Positions 34,175 to 37,100 of a DNA stretch of 64,000 bases are shown piece after piece. Position 1 is the first letter of the stretch. Each line of letters starts with the position of its first letter. Where the stretch lies: positions 1 to 64,000 of the forward strand of contig JAQGDQ010000048.1 in assembly GCA_030141605.1 (NCBI GenBank). Direction: 5' to 3'. Under the pieces are notes generated by a model. That model made no database searches. It was given only the letters and a program-made list of their open reading frames with translations, and was not told where the DNA came from. This stretch comes from Tubiluchus corallicola (Eukaryota; Priapulida; Priapulimorpha; Priapulimorphida; Tubiluchidae). Made by a program: the position numbers and the translations under genes.

Positions 34175-37100
34175 CTGGAAAAGCCAAAAAAAAGGAAATT
34201 CCGAGAGGTGGATAAGAAAATGATAAACTAGTTTTTCAGTTTAAATTTTAAAATTACGAAGTAGATATAATCATTACTTGCAATGAGGGTCATAAGGAAT
34301 TATTATTGTTGATATCAGCAAAGCTTTATTTACATTATTATTTACCTATAGGACCACGTTTAATTACTCAGACACACAGGTACTTCGTTCGTTCATTGGC
34401 TTCATTACAACGCACACACAAATTTGGTGTGAGGTGAATAAATTTATTACTTTTTATGTAACACGTGGACACAGGCAGAACTGCATTCCAGCCAATTATA
34501 AGCAAATTGCTAATGCAGTCTCTTTTTGTTATTCAACATTAGCAGTTTTACTAATTTCACAAAAAGTAATGAAACTTTCGAACAGAAGTATAATAACTCT
34601 GTTTTAGTTGACAGTAACTTTTAATAAGTTAGTCCTTAAGTTGTATGATACCTGCTACCATCTAGATAAGAAGTCAGATTTGTGTACATATCCAGGGAAC
34701 TACAGCATTGCATATTATCGCTAGGCTGTAGCTGCCAAATTAAAAAATCGTATTTGTGCCAATCACTAACTTTAAAATTTTAAAAATTCGAGTCTCATAC
34801 CATGCATTAGAAATCATATAATTTTAAATTACCAGTAATATATTTCTTAAAATATAATGCAAAAAAATTTCTCATAGTATGACAACAATGAAAGGTATTA
34901 GCAGCTGCCTGTAACTGGCTATAGTAAAAGATATCATGCACTCCATGCTGGAAGATAAATAAAACAATAGAAACTGTTATAAAAGTTCATCCACTTAATA
35001 GCCCACTAAACTGTTTAATTCTTATAAGTTAACAAGTACAGTCATAGTTTTGTAAGCAAAACACAAATTTTGTTCATGTACTTTAACCTTATTATCTAAA
35101 AAAACTTGTCAAGTATTTTTAATATAATTAAAATCAACCATACGAAGAAAATACGTGGTATCAGTTAACTGGAACCTTGCTTCTCTAAACTGTGTGTTAC
35201 ACTATACACGATAATTTAAATCAGTACTTATCACAATAGAAAAATGTATGGTACACATTTGTTGTAAGTTAATGTATGTCTCTAACCACAAAATCTGAAC
35301 AGCCTCTATTATTTTTGACAAATTTTGATGATAAATTTTTCTCAGAACCGGTGTATTTTGAAATCCAATTTTAAAATTAACTAACCATCAGACGACATAA
35401 ACATTTAGTATGTTATTATTATCATATACGTTTTTGTGAATGTGTTAATTACAGTGATCTAATAGTAAGAATAATAGTTAGTTACACGTTGTTTCTCATA
35501 GAATGTGTATTATATAGATTATATACAACTGTTTTACATGAAACTACGCAGGGCCAATCAGTTACTAGTGTGAGGTATCGAGGTATTTAGAGTGGGAATG
35601 ACTCGTTAGTAAAACAAACAAATAAATAAACAAACCTGTATTTGTTCGAATGGTACTTCGAAAGTGAATGATTCGTTATAATACGGATTAAGCGTACATT
35701 TCTTAATGCTCGTCTTCTTCTTCTTTATTCGCTTCCCGTTTTGCATCAAGGCAATTTTGACATATGGGTCTGTAGAGAGACAGATTCGCACATGCAAGAA
35801 AGCATAGAAAAAATATCGTAAGATTATCAGAACTGGGTTTGTAAAGTTGTAACGTATAATGTTAGCATGATAATGTATGTCATTTAGCATTCTTTTGCTA
35901 GGGTTTGGTGGATGCTGTTGGAATTTCTTCCTCTTTTTCTATAACTCAAAAGAGTCTTTAAACGAACAACTCGGTTTTGAACTGAATGTTGCGAAATGCA
36001 CGGTTACACGTTAAATAGAGTTTAAACGCCCAAACTTTTCAGGTAAACTATAGCTGCCATTGTTTTTTAAATGTAAAATGCAGATACAAGGTTCTACACG
36101 GGCCATCATTCCTCAGGCCTTGGCTGTTTGAAACTTACACAATACTGCACTTCACGAATAATGTCGGAAAATAAAATTGTAATAGAGCTGACTTCTTCTT
36201 CTGCCGTAAATGAGATGCAACTTATCACATGAAGAAAAAGAAAATTGCGTCATTAAAAGAGTGTATATATCCGCCACCACCAAACACAAACGTGATATGT
36301 AACTGACATTGTTATCATGCTGCTGTTTTCACCTGCATTTGACCTGGTCCTGTTTTTGACTTTGACCATGAGAGAAAGTTTGATCACTCAAATTTTTGCC
36401 CTGAGATGTAGAAGGAATAAGTGTCAGGAAATGATATGCTAAGCATGCAGGAGCTGCTTGTGAGGATATCATGCATAAAAACGTAGAAACATGCAGTACG
36501 TGCGAAATATGCTTGTTCTAAATTGCTAAAATAAATTTACGAACTTATGGCAAATCATTTATATAAGATAAGATCAGATAAATTTATAAGGTGGTCATCG
36601 TGCTATTGAATGCATATGAAAAACATAGTTCATTCTTGAAAAAATCATGCGCGACAATGCGAACTTCATAAACAATACAGTTATAAGTAAAAGAAGTTAA
36701 AAACCAAGATATTCTGTCAGTTGCATGCATACTGAGCCAAACTACCTGGATTTGTTCAAAGGGGACTTCAAACGAGAACGATTCGTTGTAATAGGGATTC
36801 AGTGTGTTTTTCTTTATGGTTGATTTCTTCTTCTTCAGACGTTTGGTGCCAAGGTACAGGCCAAGTTTGATGTAGGGATCTAGATTGTGAGCATACATAA
36901 TATATACAACTGATCAATACATAACTCCTACTACAGCTAGAGCTATCAACAGAAAGCTAACTGCGGGATGCTGTGATGTGAAAGGATGAGGTTATTATGG
37001 TTTAGGTGGATTAGAACAGACTTACAAACACATCTATGGTTATACGAAGACCTATGTGAAGTAAAATCCTTCCAACTTTCATTGTTTAGAAGAAACATTT

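Follow-up and report, generated by a model that had tools for sequence, protein, structure and literature searches.

Putative mutually exclusive C2B exons in two Syt1 genes of the priapulid Tubiluchus corallicola

The window analysed here—64,000 nucleotides of Tubiluchus corallicola, positions 1 to 64,000 of contig JAQGDQ010000048.1—holds a synaptotagmin 1 gene (Syt1) on its minus strand: a transmembrane segment, a linker, C2A, and C2B follow one another in order, and a single frame runs from the transmembrane exon to the stop codon. Within C2B, two adjacent exons (a and b) appear to encode alternative versions of the same segment. The identified parts of the gene are, in order of transcription:

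44484..44674, minus strand: transmembrane exon, the most 5′ exon identified
40676..40813, minus strand: linker exon; a second in-frame acceptor would start the exon at 40798
39392..39559, minus strand: C2A exon 1
39003..39176, minus strand: C2A exon 2
38629..38746, minus strand: common upstream C2B exon, 39 residues plus G, donor CAG/GTAAGC
36746..36879, minus strand: alternative C2B exon a, 134 nt, phase 1 to 0
35770..36745, minus strand: intron between exons a and b, 976 nt
35636..35769, minus strand: alternative C2B exon b, 134 nt, phase 1 to 0
33980..34174, minus strand: common last coding C2B exon with the stop codon, ending GKKAD

No exons 5′ of the transmembrane exon were found. Against a C2-domain profile with a cut-off of 22 bits, the isoforms carrying exon a and exon b score 90.6 and 97.2 bits, and for either C2B isoform the sequence that matches best in the PDB is a Synaptotagmin-1 chain. 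Two other features were seen in or near the gene. The linker exon has two in-frame acceptor AGs 15 nt apart (40798-40813, minus strand); a start at 40813 adds LIVQQ ahead of IQPDMEE, and a start at 40798 gives IQPDMEE, to be compared with VQPD in the second Syt1 gene described below. Tandem-acceptor splicing in the juxtamembrane linker is a possible reading of these letters, to which the Aplysia Syt I 'VQ' variant offers a parallel. Upstream of the transmembrane exon, on the opposite strand, lies an RVT_1 reverse-transcriptase open frame (46575-47414, plus strand); this frame and another at 14412-15041 (plus strand) are probably retroelement remnants. Elsewhere in the window, an exon with a Ribosomal_L4 domain (2578-3216, minus strand) probably belongs to mitochondrial ribosomal protein L4.

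The anatomy of the pair is precise. The G at 38629 is the first base of an Asp codon that exons a and b each complete, and both exons close with EQIQ in phase 0. Each of their four splice sites retains its AG or GT. Their peptides differ at 12 of 45 residues (that of exon a begins DPYIKLGLY), eight of them within residues 4-15, the strand and turn preceding KKKK. In coordinates, the two lengths, codon start, phase, and count of differences, the sequence-only reading was exact. At the nucleotide level the exons are identical at 93 of 134 positions, with differences distributed 10/7/24 over the three codon positions; the excess at third positions (24/41, binomial p = 8e-4 against 1/3) is a mark of selection on the protein. 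Exon a is not a chance likeness, since a whole-genome search with exon b matched it at E = 3.9e-16. The introns flanking a and b are dissimilar: leaving aside the intron that the two compared regions share by design, the sole strong match (92 nt at 78%) consists of exon sequence plus two GT bases, and the next best hit has E = 0.075. It had also been proposed that exon b is closer to vertebrate Syt1, and this holds modestly—exon b shares 40 of 45 residues with rat Syt1 and exon a 37 of 45, yet at residues 15, 21, 25, and 36 it is exon a that has the rat residue and exon b that does not. A tblastn search of the window and of 37 kb of contig C1525, which carries a second Syt1 gene, with both exon peptides gave no third C2B copy above chance; besides the exons themselves, it returned only the C2A cousin and one hit at E = 0.47.

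The genome search with exon b, which covered 343.5 Mb in 2344 contigs, uncovered a second Syt1 gene on another contig (C1525:413589-423602), open from the transmembrane exon to the stop and made up of transmembrane, linker, C2A, and C2B parts and a last exon with the stop. It has its own pair of C2B exons, a′ and b′, separated by an intron of 547 nt:

C1525:420667-420800: exon a′, homologue of exon a, 134 nt, AG/GT, order and phase as in the window gene
C1525:421348-421481: exon b′, homologue of exon b, 134 nt, AG/GT, order and phase as in the window gene

Adjacent homologous exons of compatible length (134/134 nt) and identical phase are therefore found in both Syt1 genes. Residue identity between the genes is 34/45 for exon a and 42/45 for exon b; for the other exons it is 44/63 (transmembrane), 53/56 and 55/58 (C2A), 37/39 (first C2B), and 55/59 for the last exon up to EIEE, or 55/67 if the tails and stops are counted, with the linker exons left out of these counts because their lengths are unequal. 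Among the 27 genome matches, no tandem full-length pair was seen beyond the two Syt1 genes; other close pairs were judged, from their profile positions, to be the C2A and C2B of one gene. As a separate observation on this genome, there are 40 matches to Hox-type homeodomains, and three of the Antp class lie on contig C1217, possibly as part of a Hox cluster; the Lox5 motif KLTGPN was absent from the six homeodomain loci inspected. Nothing matched COX1, nor did anything match the molluscan haemocyanin and annelid erythrocruorin-linker families, whose searches had no positive control and so carry no weight.

Reading-frame logic ties the two exons together. With exon a alone or exon b alone, the frame stays open for 148 residues from the common C2B exon onward. 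With both, a stop falls seven codons into exon b (THMSKLP, then stop) and precedes the last coding junction by 110 nt; with neither, a short run of foreign residues is followed by a stop within the last coding exon, and C2B is truncated. In the second gene the outcomes are equivalent: the frame is open with a′ only or with b′ only, joint inclusion meets a stop after TPT, and skipping both leads to a stop in the last exon. Joint inclusion or joint skipping thus ruins the product in both genes, as had been claimed for the window gene, and anything but exactly one exon is penalised by the frame. Under the standard exon-junction rule for nonsense-mediated decay (NMD), only the double-inclusion form is a target, since the stop of the skipped form lies in the last coding exon; this reading of the skipped form counts coding exons only, leaving 3′ UTR introns aside. 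Taken with the exon anatomy and the matching pair in the second gene, the frame logic supports the sequence-only reading: a and b are very probably mutually exclusive alternative exons of Syt1 C2B.

How one exon might be chosen over the other was considered in both genes. Steric exclusion was rejected because the intervening introns (976 and 547 nt) are too long, and U2/U12 incompatibility because all sites seen are GT-AG and, judged by eye, no donor is U12-like. The sequence-only reading had suggested docking-selector pairing, and this was not borne out: in a gapless complementarity score allowing G-U, applied in this one species to three intron pairs in each gene, nothing stood out from 40 dinucleotide shuffles each (the best intron-intron score was matched in 24, 11, and 32 of these shuffles for the window gene, and in 8, 22, and 4 for the second gene). 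Folding of the intron between a and b (35770-36745) was equally unexceptional (z 0.18, 11/20 shuffles as good), as was folding of the a′-b′ intron (z 0.43, 67/100 shuffles as good). A plus-strand blastn comparison of the three introns revealed no convincing element common to the two genes (best E = 0.02). With no RNA pairing, unusual folding, or common intronic element found, control by splicing factors together with removal of the double-inclusion form is favoured. The splice sites themselves fit a default exon b and a regulated exon a. Matches to the donor consensus CAG/GTAAGT are 7/9 for both a and b in the window, and 6/9 for a′ and 9/9 for b′; pyrimidines at -20 to -4 number 10/17 (a) and 11/17 (b) in the window, and 9/17 (a′) and 14/17 (b′) in the second gene. 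Sites of the a type are hence no better than those of the b type in either gene; they are clearly worse only in the second, and the margin in the window is small.

The exons could be alternative but not strictly exclusive, with transcripts that contain both, or skip both, serving as a regulated unproductive-splicing switch (through NMD or truncation) that sets the level of Syt1. Double inclusion does place its stop in an NMD configuration and skipping does truncate C2B, in the second gene as in the window; moreover, the 976-nt intron poses no steric bar to joint inclusion, and no excluding RNA structure was found. However, two co-maintained versions of the protein point to both serving as protein, and known cases are reported as alternative isoforms. 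We therefore consider such a switch unlikely, although it is the strongest competitor to mutually exclusive splicing.

Comparison of the two genes addresses a different concern: that only exon b is used and exon a is a decaying duplicate, a pseudo-exon that still looks intact. Exon a has diverged faster between the genes, with 11 of 45 residues changed between a and a′ as against three of 45 between b and b′ (a single test, nominal Fisher p = 0.039). Exon a′ has FELPFQNVQ for FEVPFEQIQ and NPYF for NPYY, with changes (EQI to QNV, YY to YF) at positions where the remaining three exons agree, and the splice-site scores just given could likewise be read as decay. Against this, the open frame, AG/GT, and exact length of 134 nt have been retained by exon a in both genes despite a large synonymous distance (NG86 dS = 1.19 for a-a′, and undefined for the other five exon pairs). 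Third positions account for 20 of the 33 differences between a and a′ (p = 0.0012), compared with 19/25 for b-b′ and 26/49 for a′-b′. Finally, five positions are fixed within each type and differ between a and b in both genes while KKKK is constant. A long-dead exon should have lost all these features. Decay of exon a is accordingly a distinctly improbable account, though more likely than an assembly artefact or collapsed haplotypes, for which the draft state of the genome (2344 contigs) might speak but which we discount almost entirely, given that the exons are just 93/134 identical, that their flanking introns are unlike each other, and that a second contig shows an identical layout that has diverged independently.

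Purifying selection is evident on both exons, and a and a′ evidently form a lineage apart from b and b′. A tree was built on 45 columns from 10 segments, namely rat Syt1 and the nine top-ranking genome matches of 27, with the tenth best (C516) and 17 weaker matches left out. In it, a branch supported at 99/96 sets a and a′ apart, and the b exons and rat Syt1 have no resolved order among themselves. The five type-specific positions, in what we take to be rat numbering, are 312 (I in a, V in b), 314 (L/I), 319 (G/N), 328 (S/T), and 329 (T/S); at position 317 of that numbering, a exons have Y and b exons M or L. Since the a exons group together and both genes have the five type-specific positions, the exon duplication would most simply have preceded the gene duplication, with both pairs kept thereafter. 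The large or undefined synonymous distances give both duplications an old appearance. That the two copies of a duplicated gene can each retain their tandem exons has been described before (PMC9741552).

Alternative versions of this part of C2B have precedents. The sequence-only reading had named Aplysia and C. elegans, and print bears it out: Craxton (2007; PMC1976326) states that, for this C2B region, both "encode duplicate alternative exons". In Aplysia and Lymnaea, Syt I likewise has two versions of the segment, C2B-alpha and C2B-beta, a likeness at the level of description; here, two Syt1 genes each have a pair. In Lymnaea, each version was present in about 50% of the clones, and transmission by acetylcholine, though not by FMRF peptides, was affected by Syt isoforms (PMC7419297). 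C. elegans SNT-1A and SNT-1B likewise arise from duplicate mutually exclusive exons in central C2B, with isoform expression that varies between neurons (snt-1a and snt-1b differ in expression; PMC5851683); however, the Caenorhabditis recoding adds two or three residues to the segment (PMC2823689), whereas both versions here are exactly 45 residues long and two Syt1 genes carry the pair. In insects the same C2B region is also read alternatively, but by RNA editing of one exon and not by exon choice (PMC1976326). Mutually exclusive exons also swap a C2-domain segment in arthropod Esyt2 and in Syt34, though these are other genes and the Esyt2 swap lies in the first C2 domain (PMC2823689). The same paper holds that alternative C2B exons arose repeatedly, with several origins (Craxton 2010). 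The earlier suggestion of an ancient invertebrate switch is not supported as stated. The exon pair itself is of a known kind; what is new is that this genome carries it in two Syt1 genes. Our literature search, which was not aimed at gene duplicates and left subscription papers mostly outside, did not turn up any genome described as having such a pair in each of two Syt1 genes.

The mechanism that we propose is a swappable 45-residue segment of C2B, with each mRNA keeping one exon, a or b. Exon b would be the conserved and probably default form and exon a the divergent one. Exclusivity would be enforced partly by the frame—double inclusion brings an early stop, and the transcript should be degraded—and partly by factor-regulated choice of exon a against a somewhat stronger exon b. 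The swapped segment, which presumably spans beta strands 3 to 5 as in the description of C. elegans SNT-1A/1B, includes the C2B polybasic strand, and the swap may retune the beta3-beta4 hairpin beside that KKKK strand. KKKK itself, the leading Asp of the exon (which would coordinate Ca2+), and the initial Tyr in NPY (presumably on the SNARE-binding face) are unchanged between a and b; for that reason, Ca2+-independent contacts rather than Ca2+ sensing should be altered. The contacts affected might be those with PIP2, SNAREs, or AP-2, or those within an oligomer, and the effect of a versus b should differ by neuron type.

The C2B domain of Syt1 is central to triggering synchronous neurotransmitter release. 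A broader picture is that of one old a/b switch, predating the Syt1 duplication here and perhaps common to molluscs and nematodes, with four C2B versions now issuing from two genes and a′ evolving towards a C2B of its own, altered in the contacts that face SNAREs or the membrane; we offer this tentatively, as a conjecture that leans towards the doubtful. That two Syt1 genes both retain the pair speaks for a switch in functional use over a long time, and offers a natural experiment for identifying the residues that characterise a and b. The five a/b positions provide a signature for testing common versus repeated origin across phyla.
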